A stretch of 64,000 nucleotides of DNA from Alphaproteobacteria bacterium (GCA_022822405.1 JAJEBT010000097.1:37850-101849); one strand, 5' to 3'. Positions 47,403 to 62,688 are shown, numbered from the stretch's first letter. A program made the numbers and translations. Notes: generated by a model not told the origin, from the sequence alone.

Positions 47403-49013
47403 GCCGGAGGGAGTTTCACAGTGGAATTTACGAGAGTTCCGGCCGTCATTCCCAATCCGAACCGCCAGATGCCTCTGGCGGCAATCGTCGAGTTTGCCAC
47501 CGACATTCCATCGCACGCGGTCATTCGCCTTGTCGACGACAAGTACACCCGGCAGATTGAAAGCGATTCGGATTCCGGAGGGAGGTACAGAATTCCGGTC
47601 ACCGGTCTCCGTTTCGGCACGGTCTATGACATTGCCGTGACCGTAGAGGCGGTCGAAGGCACGGAGCGGCTCACGGCCGGTTCCCTGACCTTTGCCACCC
47701 CGGTACTGCCAAAGGAATTTCCGCCGGTGAAACTCCGCTCCTGCCTCCCCGAACGGCGCGAGCCGGGTGCGATGATGTTCAATGTCCGTTATAGCCCGTC
47801 TTCGGAACATCGTCCCGGCTTCGGGCTCATGATTGCCGTGGACAAGTTCGGCGAGATTGTCTGGAGCTACCAGCTCGACGAGGCCGCTGGTGATATCAGA
47901 CGGCTAGCCAACGGCAACATTCTCTTCATGACCGACGGTCGGCTACGCGAGATCGATCTTTTGGGCAACACGGTGGGAGACTGGCATGCGGCCGAGCGCT
48001 GGAAGGATCGCCGCCCGCCCGCAGGCTCGGTCGCGGTCGAGACGAACATGTTCCACCATGCGGCGATCGAGTTGCCGTCAGGAAACCTGGCCGCTTGCAG
48101 CATGGAGATTCGCGACATAGATGACTTTCCGGCTTCCGATGAGGATCCGGAAGCGGGTGTGGCACCTGCTCGGGTCGTCGGTGACGTGATCGTGGAATTC
48201 TCGCGCGATGGGGCGGTAGTCAACCGCTATTCGCTTCTCGATCTGCTGGATCCGCATCGCATCTGCTATGGCAGCCTCAGCAGGTATTGGGTAAGCCGCG
48301 GGTATCCTGACACCTATGACTGGAGCCACACGAACAGTCTGGCGTACGATCCCGCGGACGACAGTTTCGTGGCGTCGCTGCGGCATCAGGATTGTCTCGT
48401 CAAGATCGACCGATCCAGCGGCACGGTGAAATGGATACTAGGAAGCCATGCGAACTGGCGGGCGCCATGGAAGGACAACCTCCTCACGGCCGGGCCGGGT
48501 CTGGAGTGGCAGTATCATCAGCATGACTGTTCGGTGACCGGGGATGGGACCGTGATGTGCTTCGATAACGGCAACCACCGTGCCTGTCCATTCGACGAGA
48601 AGACGGCACCTCCCGAGAACTACAGCCGTGCCGTCGAGTTTGCCGTCGACGCGCCGGCGGGAACGGTTCGCCAGATGTGGGAGTGGGGCCAACGCGACCA
48701 CGATGTCTTCTCGACCTTCCAGAGCGGCGCCTGCCGCTTGCCCGCTTCCGGAAATACCTTCATCACCTATGGCGGAATCTGCTCCGTCGACGGCGTACCG
48801 GCGGAAAACCCCTTCACCTCGCACTGCATGGCGCGATGGATCGAGGTTACGCCCGGGACGCCCGGCGAAATGGTGTTCGAGATGATCGTTGAAGACGAGT
48901 CTGCCGAGGATCCAGTTGCCTGGTCATCGTTCCGGGCGGAACATTTCCCGGACCTGGGCGCAGGTGTAACGCTTTTCCAAAGCCCGGGGCGCGGCGAAGG
49001 TGCAGAATCATGA
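47403..49013 (+). CDS. Arylsulfotransferase (ASST) family protein with N-terminal Ig-like domain
   Basis: YDWSHTNSLAYDPADDSFVASLRHQDCLVKIDRSSGTVKWILGSHANWRAPW..HDCSVTGDGTVMCFDNGNHR; ASST-type repeats; start uncertain (ORF opens 47325). Confidence 0.82.
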   Translation, partial: AGGSFTVEFTRVPAVIPNPNRQMPLAAIVEFATDIPSHAVIRLVDDKYTRQIESDSDSGGRYRIPVTGLRFGTVYDIAVTVEAVEGTERLTAGSLTFATPVLPKEFPPVKLRSCLPERREPGAMMFNVRYSPSSEHRPGFGLMIAVDKFGEIVWSYQLDEAAGDIRRLANGNILFMTDGRLREIDLLGNTVGDWHAAERWKDRRPPAGSVAVETNMFHHAAIELPSGNLAACSMEIRDIDDFPASDEDPEAGVAPARVVGDVIVEFSRDGAVVNRYSLLDLLDPHRICYGSLSRYWVSRGYPDTYDWSHTNSLAYDPADDSFVASLRHQDCLVKIDRSSGTVKWILGSHANWRAPWKDNLLTAGPGLEWQYHQHDCSVTGDGTVMCFDNGNHRACPFDEKTAPPENYSRAVEFAVDAPAGTVRQMWEWGQRDHDVFSTFQSGACRLPASGNTFITYGGICSVDGVPAENPFTSHCMARWIEVTPGTPGEMVFEMIVEDESAEDPVAWSSFRAEHFPDLGAGVTLFQSPGRGEGAES

Positions 49014-50233
49014 CAGGCGGGCTCGGGCCTCTCTCCGGCATTACGGTGCTCGACCTGACTCGCGTGCTCGCCGGGCCAACATGTACCCAGATGCTCGGAG
49101 ATCTCGGCGCGGAAGTGATCAAGGTCGAGCGCCCGGGCAGCGGGGATGATACGCGCAAGTTCGCTCCGCCCTTCGTACAGGATGGTGAGGGCCGGGACAC
49201 CGGTGAAAGCGCCTACTACATGGGCGCGAACCGGAACAAGAAGTCCATTGCGCTTGACATCGCGCGGCCGGAGGGCGCCGAAATCGTTCGCCGCTTGGCG
49301 GCCGGGGCCCAGTGCGTGGTGGAGAACTTCAAGACCGGCAATCTCGCCAGGTACGGTCTCGGTTACGAGGACCTGAAGGAGGAGAATCCCGGCCTTGTCT
49401 ACTGTTCGGTGACCGGGTTCGGCCAGACGGGACCTTACGCGCCGCGTCCGGGCTACGATTTCCTGCTGCAGGGAATGGGCGGGTTGATGTCGATTACCGG
49501 TGAAGTCGACGGCGAACCCCAGAAGGTGGGCGTCCCCATTGCCGATCTGATGGCCGGGATGTATGCGGCGGTGGCGATCTGCGCGGCATTGCGTCATGCC
49601 GCTGTGTCCGGTGAAGGCCAGTATATCGACATTGGCATGATGGATACGACCGTTGCCATGCTGGCCAACGCGGGAATGAACTACCTGCATGGCGGCTCGT
49701 TGGGCCGGCTGGGCAATGCCCACCCCAACATCGTTCCCTATCAGCCGTTCCGGACGGCTGACGGATACATCATCGTCGCGATCGGAAATGACGGGCAGTT
49801 CCAGAGGTTCTGCGATCTTGCAGGCCGCGCCGACCTTGCCCGGGATCCGGACTACGCGACCAACGATTCACGGGTCCGGAACCGCCAGTCTCTCCTGCCG
49901 GTGCTGCGCGAGATCTTTGCCGGCCGGCCTTCCGCAGAGTGGCTGAGCGGCCTTGAGGAACGAAACATCGGCTGCGGTCCGATCAACGACCTCGAAGATG
50001 TCTTCGACGACCCTCACGTCCGGGCGCGAGAAATGGTGGTCAGCATGGATCATCCTCTCGGCGGCAGTGGCGGTGTGGCATTGATAGGAAGCCCGATGCG
50101 GCTTTCCGGCACCCCGGTCGAATACCGGTATGCCCCGCCAATGCTCGGCGAGCATACGGAGGCGGTGCTCCGCGAGCAGCTTGGGCTCCGCGACGATGAC
50201 CTCGAAGCCCTGCGTCGGCAGGATGTGATCTGA
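49010..50233 (+). CDS. CaiB/BaiF family CoA-transferase
   Basis: GPLSGITVLDLTRVLAGPTCTQMLGDLGAEVIKVERPGSGDDTR; GANRNKKSIALDI; ATGA overlap with preceding gene. Confidence 0.94.
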   Translation: MTGGLGPLSGITVLDLTRVLAGPTCTQMLGDLGAEVIKVERPGSGDDTRKFAPPFVQDGEGRDTGESAYYMGANRNKKSIALDIARPEGAEIVRRLAAGAQCVVENFKTGNLARYGLGYEDLKEENPGLVYCSVTGFGQTGPYAPRPGYDFLLQGMGGLMSITGEVDGEPQKVGVPIADLMAGMYAAVAICAALRHAAVSGEGQYIDIGMMDTTVAMLANAGMNYLHGGSLGRLGNAHPNIVPYQPFRTADGYIIVAIGNDGQFQRFCDLAGRADLARDPDYATNDSRVRNRQSLLPVLREIFAGRPSAEWLSGLEERNIGCGPINDLEDVFDDPHVRAREMVVSMDHPLGGSGGVALIGSPMRLSGTPVEYRYAPPMLGEHTEAVLREQLGLRDDDLEALRRQDVI

Positions 50234-51056: not shown

Positions 51057-51872
51057 ATGACCGAGATCGGTCACATTGACTACACGACCATCGACGTCGA
51101 CAGGAACGTCAGTTACGAGAGCCTCAGGGATCGTGTGGTCATCATCACCGGCGGTGGGCAAGCGATAGGCAGGGGCTATGCGCACTATTTTGCTGCCCAG
51201 GGCGCCATTCCGGTGGTTGCCGATATCAATGCCGACAACGCTCGCAAGGTCGTTGGCGAAATCGAGGATAACGGTGGCCGCGGGCTCGCTCTCGAAGTCG
51301 ATGTTGCGGTCGAGGGTTCGGCCAACGAGATGGCCGCCGCCACTATGGATGCCTTCGGGCGGATCGACGTGCTGATCAACAACGCCGCTGTGTTTTCCCG
51401 GATCACGATGGCGCCGTTCTGGGAACTGCCGGGCGACGAATGGTTGCGTGCCGTCGACGTCAATGTGAACGGCGCCTTCTGGTGCTCGCGTGCTGTCGTC
51501 CGCCACATGATAGAGGCCCGGTGGGGGCGCATCATCAACGTTTCCTCCGGCACGACGGCGCTCGGCCGCCCGAACTATCTTCATTACATCACCACCAAGT
51601 CGGCGATGATCGGCATGACGCGGTCGATGGCGCGCGAGGTCGGCCCTTACGGGATCACCGTGAACACGTTTTGGCCGGGTGTCATGCAGACTGAAATTGA
51701 GCGGCCCTCCGTTCCGCGTGAGATGTTCGCAAAGTTTACGGATTCCCAGTGCCTGCCGAGACAGGGAACGATCCATGACCTGGCCAAGGCGATGCTGTTC
51801 CTGTGTTCCGACGAGGCAGCCTACATGACCGGGCAGGGGATGATCGTGGATGGCGGAAACAACTTCCTGTGA
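51057..51872 (+). CDS. Short-chain dehydrogenase/reductase (SDR)
   Basis: VVIITGGGQAIGRGYAHYFAAQGAIPVVADINADNARKVV; NNAAV; YITTKSAMIGMTRSMARE. Confidence 0.93.
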   Translation: MTEIGHIDYTTIDVDRNVSYESLRDRVVIITGGGQAIGRGYAHYFAAQGAIPVVADINADNARKVVGEIEDNGGRGLALEVDVAVEGSANEMAAATMDAFGRIDVLINNAAVFSRITMAPFWELPGDEWLRAVDVNVNGAFWCSRAVVRHMIEARWGRIINVSSGTTALGRPNYLHYITTKSAMIGMTRSMAREVGPYGITVNTFWPGVMQTEIERPSVPREMFAKFTDSQCLPRQGTIHDLAKAMLFLCSDEAAYMTGQGMIVDGGNNFL

Positions 51873-52476
51873 TCGCCTGTCGGGGCCGGACTGGGCGCTA
51901 TACTACCGGAAGACAGGACACCGCCCGCCGCGTCCGACCCTGGTCCGGGCTCTCGACAGTTTCGATTTGGAAGGCCGGCCGCGGGACGCCCTGGCTGTCG
52001 ATCTCGGTTGCGGGTCGGGACGCGATACCATCGAGATCCTGCGAAGGGGCTGGCCGGTGCTTGCCGTCGATGCCGCCGAAGAGGCCATTGCGGCGCTTCT
52101 GGCCCGCGATGACCTGCCGCCTGAGGCTGGCATCCGCACGCTCGTCCGCCGTCACGAGGAGTTGGAGATGCCGCGATGCGATCTCGCCAATGCCGGCTTT
52201 TCGCTTCCGCTTTGCCCCAGGCCGGCCTTTCCGGCTGTGTGGTGCAAGATCGTCACAGCGCTGCGCTCCGGCGGCCGCTTTTCCGGCCAGTTCTTCGGCG
52301 AGCGGGACAGTTGGTCGGGCAATCCGTCCATGACCCATCTTTCCCGTTCCGAGGCAGAGCGATTCCTGTCGGATCTTGAAATCGAGCAATTCGAGGAAGA
52401 GGAGGATGACAGCGTGACGCCGCGCGGCGAATTCAAGCACTGGCACATCTTTCATATCGTCGGGCGCAAGCCGTGA
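51850..52476 (+). CDS. Class I SAM-dependent methyltransferase
   Basis: ALAVDLGCGSGRDTIEILRRGWPVLAVDAAEEAI; start overlaps SDR stop by 23 nt. Confidence 0.82.
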   Translation: MAETTSCDRLSGPDWALYYRKTGHRPPRPTLVRALDSFDLEGRPRDALAVDLGCGSGRDTIEILRRGWPVLAVDAAEEAIAALLARDDLPPEAGIRTLVRRHEELEMPRCDLANAGFSLPLCPRPAFPAVWCKIVTALRSGGRFSGQFFGERDSWSGNPSMTHLSRSEAERFLSDLEIEQFEEEEDDSVTPRGEFKHWHIFHIVGRKP

Positions 52477-53225
52477 CACCGGACACGGACAGGCGGTCGT
52501 CACTGCGTGCAGAAGTCGCGGCCTGCACGCGCATCCTCAACATGGAGGGATTGATCGACTATTCCGGACATGTCAGCGCGCGACTGCCCGACGGATCCGG
52601 CATCGTCATACAGTGCTACGACGATCCCCGTTCCGGCGTCACGCCCGATGGTCTGCTGATTTGCGACATGGACGGGCACCTTGTCGAAGGCTCTGCGGGA
52701 AAGGCGCCACCGCGTGAGGTGTTCATTCATACCGAGGTCCTCGCCACACGCCCGGAAGTCCACGCGGTCGGACATTTTCATCCTGAGATCGCGACCATCT
52801 TCAGCATCGTCAAGGATACAGGGCTGGCCGCCGTGAAAAATCATGCAGCGCGCTGGGCAGACGGAATACCGGTTCACCCTGATCCCGGCCACATTAACAC
52901 TCCCGCGGCCGGCCGCGCGTTGGCGGCGACGCTTGGATCCTGCAATGCCGCCCTCATCCGCGCCCACGGGGTCGTGCTGCTCGCCGAGAGCGTGCCGGCG
53001 TTGCTCGTTGATTCGGTGCATTTCGAGGAGAACGCCCAGGCGTTCTGGCGTGCAGCGGCCATCGGCGCCGTCGATCCGCTTTCCGATGCGGAACTCGCGG
53101 CCTTCACGCGGCGTTTCGACCGCGCCAAGCACGTTGCCAAGCTCTGGAAATACTACGTTGACCGGGCGATAGAACGCGAAGTTGTTCCGCCCGAGTGGTT
53201 GGGCTATACGCAACCGGGCTTGTAG
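52473..53225 (+). CDS. Class II aldolase/adducin family protein
   Basis: ILNMEGLIDYSGHVSARLPDGSGIVIQ; EVHAVGHFHPEIATIFSIV; LIRAHGVVLLAESV. Confidence 0.92.
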   Translation: MTPDTDRRSSLRAEVAACTRILNMEGLIDYSGHVSARLPDGSGIVIQCYDDPRSGVTPDGLLICDMDGHLVEGSAGKAPPREVFIHTEVLATRPEVHAVGHFHPEIATIFSIVKDTGLAAVKNHAARWADGIPVHPDPGHINTPAAGRALAATLGSCNAALIRAHGVVLLAESVPALLVDSVHFEENAQAFWRAAAIGAVDPLSDAELAAFTRRFDRAKHVAKLWKYYVDRAIEREVVPPEWLGYTQPGL

Positions 53226-53435: not shown

Positions 53436-54290
53436 ATGAAGCTCTGCCGTTTCAACGACGACCGTCTGGGCATTGTGGAGGGCGGAGAGGTCATTGACGT
53501 CACCGGTGCGTTGGACGCGATCCCCGCGTCCCGCTGGCCCCGGCCCCAGGGTGATGCCCTGATCGCGAACCTCGATGCAGTATGCGAGAGGGCGCGTGAC
53601 CTCGCCGGTTCCGGCGCGCGCTTCGACGCGGACGGTGTCCTGCTCAGGAGCCCGGTCGCCAACCCGACCAAGGTCATCGGTGCGCCTGTCAACTACCACG
53701 CCCATATGGAAGAATCGATCAAGGATGAGGGCGTCAGCTTCGGCCGCGACATCAAGACGATCGATGAGTATGGGCTGTTCCTGAAGAGCCCCGTTCTCGT
53801 CGGGCCGGGCGAAGGCGTTGCGCTGCATTTCACGGACCGTCGCAACGATCACGAAATTGAACTCGCCATGGTCATCGGAAAGACGGCGAAGAATGTCGCG
53901 TACGAGGACGCGCTCGATCATGTGGCAGGTTACGCCATCGGCCTCGACATGACGGTGCGCGGCACCGAAGAGCGGAGCCTGCGCAAGGCGATCGACAGTT
54001 ATTCCGTCCTCGGCCCGTGGCTCGTGACCGCTGACGAAATTGCTGATCCCGACAAGCTCGATTTCGCTATCCACGTCGGCGACGAAGAGCGCCAGAACTC
54101 GAACACCGACAAGTTGATCTTCGACTGCCGCAAGCTGATAGCCTACGGCTCGAGCTTCTACACGCTCTTCCCCGGCGACGTTATCATGACCGGCACGCCC
54201 GAAGGCGTCGGCCCGGTTACGCCGGGTGACGTGATGCATTGTTATTGCGAGGGCATCGGCCGCATGGATGTCCCCGTTCGCGCTGCCTGA
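53436..54290 (+). CDS. Fumarylacetoacetate hydrolase family protein
   Basis: MKLCRFNDDRLGIVEGGEVIDVTGALDAIP; NPTKVIGAPVNYHAHMEES; TLFPGDVIMTGTPEGVGPVTPGD. Confidence 0.93.
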   Translation: MKLCRFNDDRLGIVEGGEVIDVTGALDAIPASRWPRPQGDALIANLDAVCERARDLAGSGARFDADGVLLRSPVANPTKVIGAPVNYHAHMEESIKDEGVSFGRDIKTIDEYGLFLKSPVLVGPGEGVALHFTDRRNDHEIELAMVIGKTAKNVAYEDALDHVAGYAIGLDMTVRGTEERSLRKAIDSYSVLGPWLVTADEIADPDKLDFAIHVGDEERQNSNTDKLIFDCRKLIAYGSSFYTLFPGDVIMTGTPEGVGPVTPGDVMHCYCEGIGRMDVPVRAA

Positions 54291-54691
54291 TGCCCGGAGA
54301 GACCCTTGTCGGGCGCCTTGCCACGGGGATCGGCATGGGCAAGACCTTCACCAGGCTCGATTGGGCGCGTCACCAGTTTGTCGAGAAACTCGGAATCGAT
54401 CCCTATCCGGGTACCGTCAATGTGGTCGTCGACGATCCCGAATCGATGCCGGTCTGGGTTCGTCTCAAGCGACAGGCAGGAATTGCGGTGGAAAATCCGG
54501 GAGACGGGCCGCATGACTGTGATGCAAAATGCTGGCCGGTCCGGATCGCCGGCGCAATCGACGGTGCGATCGTCCTCCCTCTCGTCGAAGATTATCCGCC
54601 GGCCCAGGTGGAGGTGATCGCGGCGGTCGGCGTGCGCGAGGCGCTAGGTATTGAGGACGGCGACACGGTGACGCTGACGCTGGCAGGCTGA
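54290..54691 (+). CDS. DUF120-family protein (archaeal CTP-dependent riboflavin kinase RibK-like)
   Basis: LVGRLATGIGMGKTFTRLDWARHQFVEKLGIDPYPGTVNVVVD...GAIVLPLVEDYPPAQVEVIAAVGVREALGIEDGDTVTLTL; matches G-x-G-x-F, KLGxxPYxGTxN, and GAIVxPxxxxY...LREx..L.DGD.V signatures recalled from Methanocaldococcus MJ0056; TGATG overlap with preceding FAH gene. Confidence 0.85.
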   Translation: MPGETLVGRLATGIGMGKTFTRLDWARHQFVEKLGIDPYPGTVNVVVDDPESMPVWVRLKRQAGIAVENPGDGPHDCDAKCWPVRIAGAIDGAIVLPLVEDYPPAQVEVIAAVGVREALGIEDGDTVTLTLAG

Positions 54692-54694
54692 ACG

Positions 54695-55777
54695 ATGACG
54701 GCGCGCATCGTACGGGCGGAGGCGGAACTCTGGGTCTTCCCGCTGTCGGGGCCGACGGGCGGTTCCGGCATCACCGCCGTCGACGTGATCGTCGTCGATC
54801 TCGAGGATTCGGCTGGTCATGTCGGCAGCGGCTTTTCCTATGTCCTCGGCGGCGGCGGCGGCACGGTGGTGGCTGCGGCGCGCGACATGCTCGACCGGTT
54901 TGTCAGGAATGAGCCCCTGGTACCGCCCCAGGTCATGTGGCGCCGCCTCGCCGCGTCCCTGAACCGCCTCGGGCGCGGAGTCGGATATCTCGCGATCGCC
55001 GCCATCGACGTGGCGATGTGGGATCTCCAAGCCAGACGTCTTGGGGTACCGCTTGCCGTCGCGCTCGGCGGGGCGCCACGCAGCCTGCCGGTGTACGGTT
55101 CGGGCGGATTCGCGCCGGCGCAGGACCCCGGCGCTGCAGTTGAACAGGCCTGCCGTTATGCGGAAGCAGGCTGCAGGGCCGTCAAGTTGCGTGTCGCCGG
55201 CACTCCGCCGGACGCCGAGCGCATCGGGGCGGTCGCGGATGCGCTTCCCTCTCATGTGCAACTCATGGCCGACGCCAACGAAAAATGCGACCTTGTCAGC
55301 GCGCAGTGGCTTGCGAGGAAGCTTGCGGATGCGGATGCGCTGTGGTTCGAGGAGCCGCTACCGGCGCACGACACCGATGGCTTTCGCGTGTTGGCGCAGA
55401 ACAGTCCGGTCGCCCTGGCGACCGGCGAGCATCATCAGGGCGTCGAGGAGTTGGCGCCGTTGATGGAGGCAAGGGCGATCTCGGTTATTCAGCCGGATCT
55501 TGCCATGATGGGCGGCATCACCGAATGCCTGCGCGTTGCGCAGATAGCTGAGCACTACAATCTGGCGGTATCGCCGCATTTTCTCCCGGCGCTTTTCATT
55601 CACCTTGCTGCGGCGGCACCAGCTGTCGTCTGGATGGAAGATTTTCCGCTCCTTGAACCGCTGTTCGACGAGCCCCGGTCGATGGATGAACACGGTTTTA
55701 TTACGCCTTCGGAGGAGCCGGGGCACGGGCTTGCATGGGCAGCAGGCGCCCGCGAGGAATACAGGACGGATCGATGA
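54695..55777 (+). CDS. Mandelate racemase/muconate lactonizing enzyme family (enolase superfamily)
   Basis: GVGYLAIAAIDVAMWDLQARRLGVPLAVALGG; CRAVKLRVAG; LMADANEKCDL; WFEEPLPAHD; IQPDLAMMGGITECLRVAQIAEHYNLAVSPHFLP. Confidence 0.93.
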   Translation: MTARIVRAEAELWVFPLSGPTGGSGITAVDVIVVDLEDSAGHVGSGFSYVLGGGGGTVVAAARDMLDRFVRNEPLVPPQVMWRRLAASLNRLGRGVGYLAIAAIDVAMWDLQARRLGVPLAVALGGAPRSLPVYGSGGFAPAQDPGAAVEQACRYAEAGCRAVKLRVAGTPPDAERIGAVADALPSHVQLMADANEKCDLVSAQWLARKLADADALWFEEPLPAHDTDGFRVLAQNSPVALATGEHHQGVEELAPLMEARAISVIQPDLAMMGGITECLRVAQIAEHYNLAVSPHFLPALFIHLAAAAPAVVWMEDFPLLEPLFDEPRSMDEHGFITPSEEPGHGLAWAAGAREEYRTDR

Positions 55778-56652
55778 GGTTGTGCCGCTACAACAGCGAC
55801 AAGCTGGGACTGGTCAAGGGAGACCAGCTGATCGACGTCACCCCGGCGCTTGATGTCCTGCCCGAGCGGCGTTGGCCGTCTCCTCTAGGCGACCAGCTGA
55901 TCGCCGGTCTCGACACGGTGCTCAGGGAAGTGTCCGGCCTCCAGAAGATGGGATACGTGCAGGGGGTTGCCAACGTCACGCTGCGAAGCCCGGTGGCCAA
56001 TCCGACAAAGATCATTGGCGCGCCCGCGAACTATATGGATCACGTCGCGGAAGCACGGGATGATCCCGGGATCAGCTTCGGCCGCGAGACCAGGACGATC
56101 AAGGACAGCGGGCTGTTCCTGAAGGCGGTGTCAGCCTTGGCCGGGGCCGGTGATGGCATCGTTCTCGGCCATGCCGGCCGCCGCAATGACCACGAGATCG
56201 AACTTGCGCTGGTCATCGGACGTGGCGGCAAGAACATCGCGCCCGATGCCGCTCTCGACCATGTCGCCGGGTATGCCATCGGCCTTGACATCACGGTGCG
56301 CGGCGTCGAGGACCGCAGTCTCCGCAAGTCCGGTGACTCCTATGCGCTGCTGGGGCCGTGGATGACGACGGCCGACGAGATTCCTGACCCGGACAACCTC
56401 GGATTTCGCCTTCTGGTGAACGGAGACGTGCGCCAGGAGTCGAACACCCGGTTCATGATCTTCGGTTGCCGGAAGTTGATCGCCTACGCGTCGACATTCT
56501 ACACGCTCTATCCGGGCGACGTCATCATGACGGGCACGCCGAGCGGCGTTGGCCACCTGTTTCCCGGGGACAGCCTGCGGTGCGAGTTTGACATCATCGG
56601 AAAGATGGACGTAAAGGTGCGCACCGCTGCCGAGGCAGCGGCTGCCCCGTAA
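55774..56652 (+). CDS. Fumarylacetoacetate hydrolase family protein (paralog of 53436..54290)
   Basis: MRLCRYNSDKLGLVKGDQLIDVTPALDVLP; NPTKIIGAPANYMDHVAEARDD; TLYPGDVIMTGTPSGVGHLFPGD; ATGA overlap with enolase-superfamily gene. Confidence 0.93.
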   Translation: MRLCRYNSDKLGLVKGDQLIDVTPALDVLPERRWPSPLGDQLIAGLDTVLREVSGLQKMGYVQGVANVTLRSPVANPTKIIGAPANYMDHVAEARDDPGISFGRETRTIKDSGLFLKAVSALAGAGDGIVLGHAGRRNDHEIELALVIGRGGKNIAPDAALDHVAGYAIGLDITVRGVEDRSLRKSGDSYALLGPWMTTADEIPDPDNLGFRLLVNGDVRQESNTRFMIFGCRKLIAYASTFYTLYPGDVIMTGTPSGVGHLFPGDSLRCEFDIIGKMDVKVRTAAEAAAAP

Positions 56653-58312: not shown

Positions 58313-59539
58313 CTAGCGGTCGAAATTGAAGATTCGCTTCGCGTTCAGCCCCAGGATATTGCGCTTCGCCTCCTCGTCGAGAAACGGGAGGTCCCAGATC
58401 ACGCTTGGTGTGTCGAAGTCGTAATGCGGCCAGTCCGAGGCGTAGAGGAGCTGGGTATTCGCGTTGATCATCTCGAAGGTCACCTCGAGGGCCTTCATGT
58501 GATCGGTCTCCATGGGCTGGCACGTATAGTACATCTCCTTCATGTACTCGCTCGGCAGCTTCTTGAGCACTGGCGCTTCCGACGACCGCATCAGGTAGGT
58601 GTGGTCAAGGCGCTGCATCAGCCACGGTACCCAGGCGAGGCCGGATTCGATCCAGACGACGTCCAGGCCGGGAAAACGCTCGGGAAGGCCGTTCATGATC
58701 CAGTTCGTCATGTGGACCACGTTGCACCACACGAAGGACAGCGCGTGCATCGAACCAAACCGGTTGATCTGCATCATGAAGGGGTCCTGCCAGTAATAGC
58801 CGGCATGGAAGCCGAGCGGCAGGCCGCGCTCCTCAAGGGCGCGATAGACCTTCATGTAGTGATTGTGGTGGACGGCCTTGTAGCGCACCGACGTGACCAT
58901 GAATCCGACGCAACCCGGCGCGTCGCCGAACTCCTCGATGGTCTCGAGCGCCGATTCGGGATCGTTGAACGGCAGGAACATCATCGTCTTGAGGTGCTTG
59001 TCCTTGGTGAGGATGTTGTCGACCTGCCAGCGGTTGTAGGCCTTGCCAAGAGTGGCCTCCATGTCGAACTGGGGGTGCATGCCGAGAAAGAGCATGGGCG
59101 TGGGGAAGACTATCTGGTAGTCGATTCCCATGGCCTCGTAGGCGCGCTTCGCAAGCACCAGATCACGATGTCCGGCCTGCTTCAGCTCCTGTTCGCTGAC
59201 CGGCTCGCTGCGCGCGGCCTGATGCGGTATGCGACCGCCGACGTCCTGGTAGCGCATCGCAAGGTCGCCGTTGAGTGCATAGGGCGGGGTGCCCGAGCGA
59301 TGGAGAACCATCTCTCTCGCGTTCTCGCGCACGACGGGGTCATCGATATAGCCGATGATGTCTCGCCACGATTCGGTCTCGGTATGGTGCGAATCGATAT
59401 CGACGATGAACACATCGTCGAAATTCCGCTCTTCGGCCTGCCGCCGCGCCTTGGCAAGCACGTCCCTCGAATCTGTGTAGGTGGTGATTTCCTTGACGGG
59501 GTTTTCCCTGACCGGGACTGCTTCGACGCCTGTATCCAT
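58313..59539 (-). CDS. Amidohydrolase family protein (ACMSD-like TIM-barrel metal hydrolase)
   Basis: DDVFIVDIDSHHTETESW; PLGFHAGYYW; LLYASDWPHYDFDTP; AKRNILGLNAKRIFNF. Confidence 0.88.
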   Translation of the reverse strand: MDTGVEAVPVRENPVKEITTYTDSRDVLAKARRQAEERNFDDVFIVDIDSHHTETESWRDIIGYIDDPVVRENAREMVLHRSGTPPYALNGDLAMRYQDVGGRIPHQAARSEPVSEQELKQAGHRDLVLAKRAYEAMGIDYQIVFPTPMLFLGMHPQFDMEATLGKAYNRWQVDNILTKDKHLKTMMFLPFNDPESALETIEEFGDAPGCVGFMVTSVRYKAVHHNHYMKVYRALEERGLPLGFHAGYYWQDPFMMQINRFGSMHALSFVWCNVVHMTNWIMNGLPERFPGLDVVWIESGLAWVPWLMQRLDHTYLMRSSEAPVLKKLPSEYMKEMYYTCQPMETDHMKALEVTFEMINANTQLLYASDWPHYDFDTPSVIWDLPFLDEEAKRNILGLNAKRIFNFDR

Positions 59540-59625
59540 GTCTCGTCTCCCGTTTTCGCGTTCGCTTTTCGCCGGTTGCGGCCGACCTTTCCGGTACCGT
59601 CACCGACCCTGTTGCAGCCGGAGAT

Positions 59626-59946
59626 CTACGCGTCGTCGTCGGGCCGCGGCCTTCCGAACCACATGGCCAGATCGAAAGTCGAGAGGTTGACGGCGCGCAG
59701 CATGTCCGAACACGTCATGACCACGTCCGTCGCCGTGACATCCTGCGGTCCGGTGTAGGGAGAGAAGAACCGCTCCTCCATCTCGACCTTGTTTGCGAAG
59801 AGCCGGGTTCCCGCGGTCAGCAGCCGCTGCACCGTCTCATCGGAAATTGCCGCCGTGTCGCCGTTATCGAGGGCCTGTTCCGCTATTTCCAGCGCCTTCG
59901 ACGCCGCCGCGTCAAGTGCTGCAAGGTCGGCTTCAGATGGCGACAT
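59626..59946 (-). CDS. Small protein of unknown function (106 aa) between amidohydrolase and Rieske genes
   Basis: MSPSEADLAALDAAASKALEIAEQALDNGDTAAISDETVQRLLTAGTRLFANKVEMEERFFSPYTGPQ...; 14-nt overlap with Rieske gene. Confidence 0.7.
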   Translation of the reverse strand: MSPSEADLAALDAAASKALEIAEQALDNGDTAAISDETVQRLLTAGTRLFANKVEMEERFFSPYTGPQDVTATDVVMTCSDMLRAVNLSTFDLAMWFGRPRPDDDA

Positions 59947-60301
59947 ACACCTCTCCGTCCTTGACAGAGACCTTGAACGGCCGGAGCCGTACGTTCTTGC
60001 TGCCGGGATGGCGGCCGGTTTTCACGTTGTATTCAAAGCCGTGCCACGGGCAGACGATATGGACATCCGTCTCCGAGAACTTGAGCCCATGGGCCGTCTT
60101 CTCGGTTTCGTGAATGATCTCTTCGACGCGGTTGATGATCTTGCCCTGGCACGCCGGCCCGCCCTGATGGGCGCAATTGTTCTCATACGCGTAGAATTCG
60201 CCGTCGACATGAAAGACGCCGATCTCGAGATCGCCTTGCGCGATGATTTTTCGGTCGCGGTCGCCGAATTCGTCTGTCCGCCCGACATAAAGCTCCGCCA
60301 C
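59933..60301 (-). CDS. Rieske [2Fe-2S] ferredoxin-like protein
   Basis: FYAYENNCAHQGGPACQGKI...IVCPWHGFEYNVKTGRHPG (CxH..CxxH). Confidence 0.93.
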   Translation of the reverse strand: MAELYVGRTDEFGDRDRKIIAQGDLEIGVFHVDGEFYAYENNCAHQGGPACQGKIINRVEEIIHETEKTAHGLKFSETDVHIVCPWHGFEYNVKTGRHPGSKNVRLRPFKVSVKDGEVYVAI

Positions 60302-60474: not shown

Positions 60475-61470
60475 TCAGGCGGATTCCCGATTCACGGATC
60501 CGGGACCCGAAATGATGTCGGCAAACAGGTCCGGATCGACGTTGCCGCCGGAGAGAATTACGCAGGCCGTCTTGCCCACGATGTCGATCTTGCCTGCGAG
60601 GATGGTTGCGAGACCGGTGGCCCCGCCCGGTTCGGTCACGAGGCGGGCATCCGAAAACGCCGTCTTCATCGCTGCCCTGACCTCGCTGTCGGAAACCGAT
60701 GCGGCGCCGGCGAGATGCTTGCGATTTATATCGAACGTGAGTTCGCCTGGAGTCGATACCAGCAGCGCGTCACAGATCGACGTCGCGCCGGCCGCATTCG
60801 TTTCGCGCTTGCCCGAGAGAAGCGAGCGCCGGGTGTCATCGAATCCGTCTGGCTCTGCTGCATGAATTTCCGCGTCGGGCCAGGACGCGTGCAGGGCGAG
60901 GGAGGTTCCGGCGATCAGGCCGCCGCCTGAACAGGGCACGACCGCGATATCGACGTCGATGTCCAGTTCCCGGCATTGTGCGACGACCTCAAGGCCTACG
61001 GTCCCCTGGCCGGCAACGACATCAGGATGGTCGTAGGGGTGGATCAGCACTGCTCCGGTGCGGTCCATGATCTCGGCGGCAACCTGCTCGCGGGCGCCGC
61101 CCTCGCGGCTGCAGGTCACGATGTTCGCGCCAAATGAGCGGGTGCGCTCGATCTTGATGTCCGGCGCATCGGACGGCATGACGATTGTCGCGTCGATGCC
61201 CAGCCTCTGTGCGGCCAGGGCAGCGGCCTGCGCATGATTGCCCGAGGAGTGAGTGACAATTCCGCGTGCGCGTTCACGGTCGGGGAGGCGCGAAATGCGG
61301 TTCCAGGCGCCCCTGATCTTGAACGCGCCCATGGGCTGGAACATCTCGCACTTGAGGAGGACGCGCCCGCCAGTCCGTGCGTTTATCGCTGCGCTCTCGA
61401 GAAGCGGCGTGATGCAGGCGACGTCCCGCAAGCGCGTGGCGGCATCCCGGATATCGTCGATTGTCGGCAT
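60475..61470 (-). CDS. Threonine/serine dehydratase-like PLP enzyme (threonine ammonia-lyase family)
   Basis: VLLKCEMFQPMGAFKIRGAWNRISRLPDRERARGIVTHSSGNHAQAAALAAQRLGIDATIVMP; PCSGGGLIAGTSLA. Confidence 0.9.
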   Translation of the reverse strand: MPTIDDIRDAATRLRDVACITPLLESAAINARTGGRVLLKCEMFQPMGAFKIRGAWNRISRLPDRERARGIVTHSSGNHAQAAALAAQRLGIDATIVMPSDAPDIKIERTRSFGANIVTCSREGGAREQVAAEIMDRTGAVLIHPYDHPDVVAGQGTVGLEVVAQCRELDIDVDIAVVPCSGGGLIAGTSLALHASWPDAEIHAAEPDGFDDTRRSLLSGKRETNAAGATSICDALLVSTPGELTFDINRKHLAGAASVSDSEVRAAMKTAFSDARLVTEPGGATGLATILAGKIDIVGKTACVILSGGNVDPDLFADIISGPGSVNRESA

Positions 61471-61507
61471 TTGCTATCGGCTCCCGAGGTGATGTGGCGG
61501 GCGGCGC

Positions 61508-62194
61508 TCAGAGCCCGAGCAATTCCGGCAATTCGGTAAGCGTCGTTATTTCGGCTTGCGGCCCCGCCGGCAGGTGCTCGGGCAGTTGCCCTCCACGATT
61601 GACCCAGACGCTGAGAAAGCCGAACGAGGCGGCGCCGTGTGCATCCCACGCGTTCGAGGACTGGAAGGCGATCTGGCTAGCGGGTACCTTCAACCGATCG
61701 GTTGCGAGCTGATAGACCGATGGGTGGGGCTTGAAGATACCAACGCTCTGCACCGAGAGAATTTCATCGAGCAGCCCGTATATGCCCGCGCTCTTGGCGG
61801 CGCTGATCAGCATCGAGACATCCCCGTTTGAAAGGATCGCCGTTTTCTTGCCCGACTCCTTGAGGCGGGTGAGGGTGTCGGCGACTTCCGGAAAGGAAGA
61901 CAGCTGCAGGTAGAGTTCCATGAGCCGGCTGCGCAGGGCGGGATCGGTGAGGCCGACACGCTTCATGGCGTAGTCAAGCGCATTGCCCGTTATCTCCCAG
62001 AAATCGGCGTGCCGTCCCATGAGGCTGTGCAACCATGTGTATTGAAGCTGACGCTCGCGCCAGATCACCGACAGCTCCCGGGTCTTGTCGTCGAGTTTGT
62101 CCCTTGCCTGCTCGGCAGGGGAATGAATGTCGAACAGGGTGCCGTACGCGTCGAAAACACAGGCTTGGACATCGTCGAATCTCGAATCCGGCAT
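61508..62194 (-). CDS. Haloacid dehalogenase, type II
   Basis: VQACVFDAYGTLFDIHSPAEQ; KTAILSNGDVSMLISAAKSAGIYGLLDEILSVQSVGIFKPHPSVYQLA; FQSSNAWDAHGAASFGFLSVWVNR. Confidence 0.93.
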   Translation of the reverse strand: MPDSRFDDVQACVFDAYGTLFDIHSPAEQARDKLDDKTRELSVIWRERQLQYTWLHSLMGRHADFWEITGNALDYAMKRVGLTDPALRSRLMELYLQLSSFPEVADTLTRLKESGKKTAILSNGDVSMLISAAKSAGIYGLLDEILSVQSVGIFKPHPSVYQLATDRLKVPASQIAFQSSNAWDAHGAASFGFLSVWVNRGGQLPEHLPAGPQAEITTLTELPELLGL

Positions 62195-62688
62195 CGAATT
62201 TCCTCTCAGGCAACTGTTCCGGGAAGCAACGGCCCATGCAACTGCCCCCGGCTCGCCATGGCAACCGGAGGAGGCAGCATCACGAGACTGCACCGCTGGC
62301 GAAAGAGCTGCGGCTCTCGATACGCGTCCAGAGTGTTGGTCCCCGATCAGCAGAAAACCATACACGTCGGACGCTATCACGGGCAACCGGGTTTTCGAGA
62401 GCGTACATATGGTCCCTGTCCCGGCAGGAGTCCCGTGCGCGGCGGCCGCGGTCTACCGCCAGAAGCGACCGGTATCGTTGCGAGAGGATGCTCGTCAGCG
62501 ATCAAGGTAGGAACAGGCCGGAGTATGCCCGCACGCGTGGTTTCGGGCTGTGTGGCTGGTCAACGGTTCTGTCATGGCTCTGATTTCCCGGCTCGTGATT
62601 TCCGGGATCCGGAGCGCGTTCGGAAAACTTCAAAACCCGGTCCGCTGTCCAGCTTGATCGTTCCGTGGCCAGCAGCTAGCATCTTCCC

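Follow-up and report, generated by a model that had tools for sequence, protein, structure and literature searches.

An uncultured order of Alphaproteobacteria holds a gene for a protein of the DUF120 family (PF01982), the family of the archaeal riboflavin kinase RibK, strictly paired with one gene of the enolase superfamily. The example analysed here lies in a 64,000-nucleotide stretch of an alphaproteobacterial genome (GCA_022822405.1 JAJEBT010000097.1:37850-101849, hereafter the window), and its product is a real protein under purifying selection whose modelled fold is that of RibK. Our preferred reading, to which we would assign a probability of roughly 0.45, is that of a CTP-dependent flavin kinase serving a catabolism rich in flavin and prenyl-FMN.

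The gene is the second of four that are closely packed on the plus strand (Table 1), between two members of the fumarylacetoacetate-hydrolase (FAH) family and directly ahead of a gene of the mandelate-racemase (MR) subgroup of the enolase superfamily (hereafter the MR gene). That it encodes a 133-aa DUF120 protein, as the initial annotation had stated, is borne out by the translation and by a match to PF01982 of 97.3 bits (E=7.7e-28, cut-off 25, residues 12–130), and the junctions it had described can all be read directly: FAH1 and DUF120 have one base in common within TGATG (the A at 54290), 3 nt separate the DUF120 stop from the ATG of MR, and MR and FAH2 overlap by ATGA at 55774–55777. Given these junctions, co-transcription and translational coupling of the four genes are very likely. 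The nearest solved relative of FAH1 is the maleylpyruvate hydrolase 6jvv (E 3e-56), FAH2 is 60% identical to FAH1, and both (137.8 bits for FAH1 and 147.7 for FAH2) remain below the cut-off of 500 of the NF053535 equivalog, 2,4-didehydro-3-deoxy-L-rhamnonate hydrolase. The SDR, methyltransferase and class II aldolase-like decarboxylase genes upstream, which are kept in that position in family f1, are possible pathway partners of the operon.

Table 1. Genes of the DUF120 operon and its upstream neighbours, in window coordinates.
Feature	Position	Strand	Evidence
CaiB-type family III CoA-transferase	49010..50233	+	PF02515; tblastn synteny
SDR oxidoreductase, methyltransferase, class II aldolase-like decarboxylase (upstream genes)	51057..53225	+	Pfam; synteny in L051, L053
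FAH1, fumarylacetoacetate-hydrolase family, 284 aa	53436..54290	+	PF01557 159 bits, E 1e-46
DUF120 / PF01982 protein, 133 aa, putative bacterial-type RibK-like CTP-dependent kinase	54290..54691	+	PF01982 97.3 bits
MR-subgroup enolase-superfamily protein, 360 aa, talarate/galactarate-dehydratase-like	54695..55777	+	PF13378/PF02746
FAH2, fumarylacetoacetate-hydrolase family, 292 aa from ATGA start	55774..56652	+	PF01557 168 bits, E 3e-49

Two further groups of genes lie close to the operon on the minus strand of the window. One is a cassette of an amidohydrolase, a 106-aa orphan and a Rieske ferredoxin (58313–60301), which is also kept near the operon in families f1 and f3. The other (60475–62386) comprises a PALP gene resembling hydroxyaspartate/threonine dehydratases and a gene for a type II haloacid dehalogenase (210 bits, above the NCBIfam cut-off), both of which are also kept near the DUF120-MR pair in families f1 and f2.

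In a sample of 192 relatives and 399 genomes of the phylum, DUF120 is found in 24 of the 27 genomes of the window's order (the window's own included), and outside that order only in G138, G160 and, weakly, G315. The MR gene lies directly downstream of it in every one of the 24, with 48–74% identity to the MR of the window and a spacing of 0–21 nt in those genomes where the start codon could be assigned. Among the three genomes of the order with no DUF120 match, G001 has its MR gene 37 nt from the end of a contig, where DUF120 would be lost, and G006 (67% complete) and G017 (79%) are without MR as well. Two copies are present in G018, with their reading frames disrupted. No MR orthologue outside the order passes E<1e-70 among 289 genomes of the class. 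The same group also has named records, which are uncultured alphaproteobacterial MAGs (e.g., UBA830 and UBA7314).

The position of the FAH genes is more variable. They flank the pair on both sides in family f1, while in f3 there is one FAH after MR, the counterpart of the FAH1 that lies upstream of DUF120 in f1, and in f2 a different FAH gene is found several kb off, near a CaiB-type CoA transferase. Since the FAH genes are less constant than the pair, the selected unit in the order is DUF120-MR, with the FAH genes as its looser part. The four-gene operon of the initial annotation therefore stands at the window but does not extend beyond f1, outside of which only DUF120-MR is invariant; likewise, of the proposed linkage of DUF120, FAH and enolase in other genomes, the enolase-superfamily gene is always there within the order, whereas FAH is not always near. 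A CaiB-type CoA-transferase lies at most about 10 kb from the pair in f1, f2 and f4, and several f2 genomes have a PAS histidine kinase and response regulator before the pair and M23 peptidase and bactofilin genes after it.

The conservation of the pair in 24 genomes rules out a contig artefact or a chance similarity. Together with the single PF01982 match above threshold in a profile search of the window's genome and a dN/dS of 0.06–0.14 for DUF120, it argues that the operon is not a product of chance. An origin from phage or plasmid was also considered and rejected, with no match in phage records or viral contigs; plasmid matches to DUF120 come from Azoarcus and haloarchaea only.

The AlphaFold2 model of the protein (pLDDT 87.7) finds confident matches with Foldseek to RibK and RbkR only (TM 0.71–0.83, with 2vbu, 5trd and 2vbv at E about 1e-8 and TM 0.72–0.83), at 26–28% identity in the structural alignment. 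It has in common with archaeal RibK (MJ0056, 2vbu/2vbv) and RbkR (5trd) the cradle-loop fold, the glycine loop, the PGTxN Mg motif, the Glu and the Arg, and differs from them in being without the winged-helix domain, in coming from an organism that has RibF, and in the linkage of its gene to one of the enolase superfamily. Scores against the archaeal RibK equivalogs NF040694 and NF010762 (57 and 80.7 bits) do not reach the cut-offs of 168 and 279.

When aligned, 22 bacterial DUF120 sequences have the G13/G15 loop, P40-G41-T42-x-N44, E108 and R116 without exception, together with F20, W25, F30, W56, C77 and Y102, and P103 is nearly invariant. We take the glycine loop, P-G-T-x-N and R116 to be the nucleotide- and Mg-binding residues, as in the RibK structures; these motifs are thus kept, as would be expected of the kinase that the initial annotation proposed. 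No basic residue other than R116 is invariant in the 22 sequences. The archaeal [KR]-T-x-H segment, the Thr of which is presumably an FMN contact in MJ0056, is absent from the bacterial sequences inspected, with Y-P (Y102, P103) in its place, so that the bacterial branch differs from RibK and RbkR both in this loss and in its conserved W25, C77 and Y-P. These W, C and Y-P features recur in the DUF120s of Azoarcus and G690 and largely in fusions to HAD domains. In the tree, the split between archaeal and bacterial DUF120s is supported (95/96), while the branching order within the bacterial part is without support and several branches are long. Judged from the alignment and the tree, the bacterial proteins are a distinct branch with its own active-site signature, and we infer that the DUF120 of the window is catalytically active and would use CTP.

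It is also important to consider a DUF120 that binds nucleotide or flavin without catalysis and regulates or stabilises the MR enzyme. Such a partner would fit the constant adjacency and tight spacing of the two genes, and RbkR, a DUF120 protein solved with its cognate DNA (5trd), points to sensing roles in the family. The invariance of T-x-N, the glycine loop, E108 and R116 is unexpected in a dead enzyme, however, and with the low dN/dS taken into account a non-catalytic role seems very unlikely.

The initial annotation had left it to be seen whether a RibF homologue is encoded elsewhere in the genome. An ordinary RibF is indeed present (G000), as it is in all 20 of the other DUF120-bearing genomes tested, which rules out DUF120 as the organism's only riboflavin kinase; it follows that DUF120 is not the housekeeping enzyme. 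The same genome, a 5-Mb MAG, has 29 homologues above threshold of the UbiD family of prenyl-FMN-dependent decarboxylases. This is apparently an unusually large set, consisting mostly of single genes among catabolic neighbours; three of the homologues stand in tandem (C212:9543-13612) and another adjoins relatives of the window's own CaiB and SDR genes.

Beyond the order, bacterial DUF120 genes occur in two other recurrent settings. On plasmid pAZKH of Azoarcus sp. KH32C, phenylphosphate synthase/carboxylase genes are followed by UbiD, UbiX, DUF120 (40% identical to that of the window) and NUDIX, and an operon of the same kind is found in G690, the single genome sampled for its order (UbiD 65%, DUF120 48%, NUDIX 49% and UbiX 61% identical). 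The window's protein has the bacterial signature in common with these two DUF120s and differs in adjoining MR and FAH where they adjoin UbiD, UbiX and NUDIX. In the second setting, DUF120 is fused to a HAD domain in 6 of the 8 genomes of one gammaproteobacterial order (G1019, G928, G820, G1030, G1031 and G1029, on L087, L088, L089 and L097–L102), and these six belong to a single family. The neighbour of the fusion gene is UbiD in G1019, G1030 and G1031, and a PepN-like gene, not UbiD, in G928, G820 and G1029. The domain order is reversed (DUF120-HAD) in G792; both orders are seen across the fusion loci, which include a HAD phosphatase/DUF120 fusion at L086:8710-9759, and downstream of the HAD-DUF120 gene there is a conserved ORF of 147 aa.

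Several more scattered occurrences complete this survey. Archaeal DUF120 genes on plasmids have RibB and LLM flavin oxidoreductases as neighbours, and on the haloarchaeal plasmids L065, L066 and L067 DUF120 and RibB stand beside flavin-dependent or acyl-CoA catabolic genes; this arrangement looks like a mobile FMN-supply module. In G138 (L052:8857-10206), DUF120 adjoins a short ORF similar to reductive dehalogenases (TIGR02486, 98.5 bits against a cut-off of 160), and the divergent DUF120-like ORFs of G160, G315, G848 and G884 have no informative gene context.

A HAD phosphatase fused to a riboflavin kinase is known from plants, as the FMN hydrolase/riboflavin kinase AtFHy/RFK (PMC2972280), and UbiX uses FMN together with dimethylallyl (pyro)phosphate (PMC6541611), so that the bacterial settings point to flavins. 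The bacterial HAD-DUF120 fusions parallel the plant architecture, although AtFHy/RFK has a kinase of the ordinary RFK type and the DUF120 of the window has no HAD domain.

It is for the UbiD/UbiX/NUDIX operons, the HAD fusions and the 29 UbiD homologues that we favour a flavin kinase, along with the flavin-related neighbours of the archaeal plasmid genes, the restriction of confident fold matches to RibK and RbkR, and the kept nucleotide and Mg motifs. The invariant positions are mostly aromatic or small; an acid sugar would suit them less well than a flat, aromatic acceptor, and several of the aromatics could hold a flavin. On this view DUF120, a member of a separate bacterial branch with the RibK fold, would phosphorylate a small molecule at the expense of CTP, and that molecule would most likely have remained a flavin, with riboflavin converted to FMN. 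The enzyme would add to the FMN made by RibF in an organism with many flavin and prenyl-FMN (UbiD) decarboxylases, and it would be co-expressed with a catabolic operon of the sugar-acid-dehydratase/FAH type and not with the flavoenzymes themselves, such that induction of the operon raises the FMN supply. Against this stand the redundancy of the FMN supply given RibF, the loss of [KR]-T-x-H, the NCBIfam RibK scores below their cut-offs, and the absence of UbiD and UbiX from the surroundings of the pair examined in the order, which reach up to about 10 kb on each side. Nor would an enzyme that only supplies FMN have to accompany a single MR gene in 24/24 genomes, a pairing for which the flavin kinase does not account. 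The FMN supply tied to a catabolic module that the initial annotation put forward is thus strengthened by the UbiD/UbiX operons, the fusions and the UbiD set, and weakened by the redundancy with RibF and the lock to MR.

The association with UbiX may also be read as a shift of the whole branch to another hydrophobic or aromatic alcohol, either dimethylallyl alcohol, phosphorylated to dimethylallyl phosphate for UbiX, or a catabolic aryl or alkyl alcohol. UbiX enzymes vary in their use of dimethylallyl mono- or pyrophosphate (PMC6541611), DUF120 shares two phenol-type operons with UbiX and NUDIX, a HAD fusion would make a kinase/phosphatase pair, and most of the conserved residues are aromatic. 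Even so, the monophosphate could be obtained from the pyrophosphate by NUDIX or HAD alone, and the MR pair in the order has no UbiX nearby. We know of no RibK-fold kinase with such an alcohol as its acceptor, and consider this shift quite improbable.

In an alignment of 25 sequences of the MR enzyme from the order, the metal ligands D193/E219/E245 and the D268-H295 dyad are invariant. The closest PDB entries are the MR protein 2og9 and L-talarate/galactarate dehydratase (2pp0), which have the metal ligands and Asp-His dyad in common with the partner enzyme and differ at the second Lys of the KxK motif, which is Arg in all orthologues (K164-x-R166); K-x-R is also seen in MR relatives from Pseudonocardia and Roseicitreum. 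The score against NF047820, the L-talarate/galactarate dehydratase equivalog, is 223 bits, below its cut-off of 500. MR, SDR and the FAH hydrolases would fit a route of dehydratase, 4-dehydrogenase and FAH hydrolase, similar in its gene set to the non-phosphorylative sugar-acid routes that end in an FAH-type hydrolase (NF053535), although such a route has no kinase, and FAH1 and FAH2 score far below the 500 bits of that family.

Within such a route DUF120 may have been repurposed to stand in for a KDG-type kinase, with CTP as phosphate donor and, as acceptor, the terminal hydroxyl group of either a sugar acid or the 2-keto-3-deoxy compound that MR produces. This accounts for the strict MR pairing better than a flavin kinase does, including the absence of MR wherever DUF120 is absent (except at the contig edge) and of MR orthologues outside the order; it would also fit the loss of [KR]-T-x-H and the RibF of every genome tested, and the ribityl CH2OH that RibK phosphorylates would resemble the terminus of an aldonate. 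The flavin kinase covers the aromatic signature and the majority of the branch's other settings. A plasmid of Pseudonocardia carries an MR relative (42% identical, with an internal stop) that has FAH after it but no DUF120, so a kinase is not chemically required by a route of this type, and since R116 is the sole invariant basic residue, a pocket for an acid sugar, with its carboxylate, is not evident. The UbiD-linked and HAD-fused relatives carry the same active-site signature in settings that give no reason to expect a sugar acid, and FAH hydrolases acting after phosphorylated intermediates are not known to us. The TGGSG loop of MR had been taken as a sign of a phosphorylated substrate, an argument that we dropped because GGSG is also present in the Pseudonocardia homologue, which has no DUF120. 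A kinase acting between dehydratase and FAH, as the initial annotation alternatively proposed, keeps the strict MR pairing in its favour, loses ground to the Pseudonocardia genes, the variable FAH and the lone R116, and seems to us rather unlikely.

More broadly, the branch may have changed its acceptor, phosphorylating a catabolic intermediate or a prenyl-FMN precursor, with MR using the product or feeding the kinase. We regard such a change as unlikely; if true, it would be the first pathway that pairs a CTP-dependent kinase with an enzyme of the enolase superfamily.

As far as the open-access literature searched shows, PF01982 has been characterised only in archaea. Our search of that literature (subscription papers were outside its scope) found no work on the function of bacterial DUF120, only a bare mention of the domain among cyanophage genes (PMC3037559). 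The branch described here has its own signature and three settings (an enolase-superfamily partner, a UbiD/UbiX operon and a HAD fusion), with RibF in every genome tested. It would represent either a second, CTP-driven source of FMN for flavin- and prenyl-FMN-heavy catabolism in bacteria, or a fold that has acquired a new acceptor. A single small protein gives access to both readings, and its strict pairing with MR offers a direct route to the substrate of a group of enolase-superfamily enzymes.
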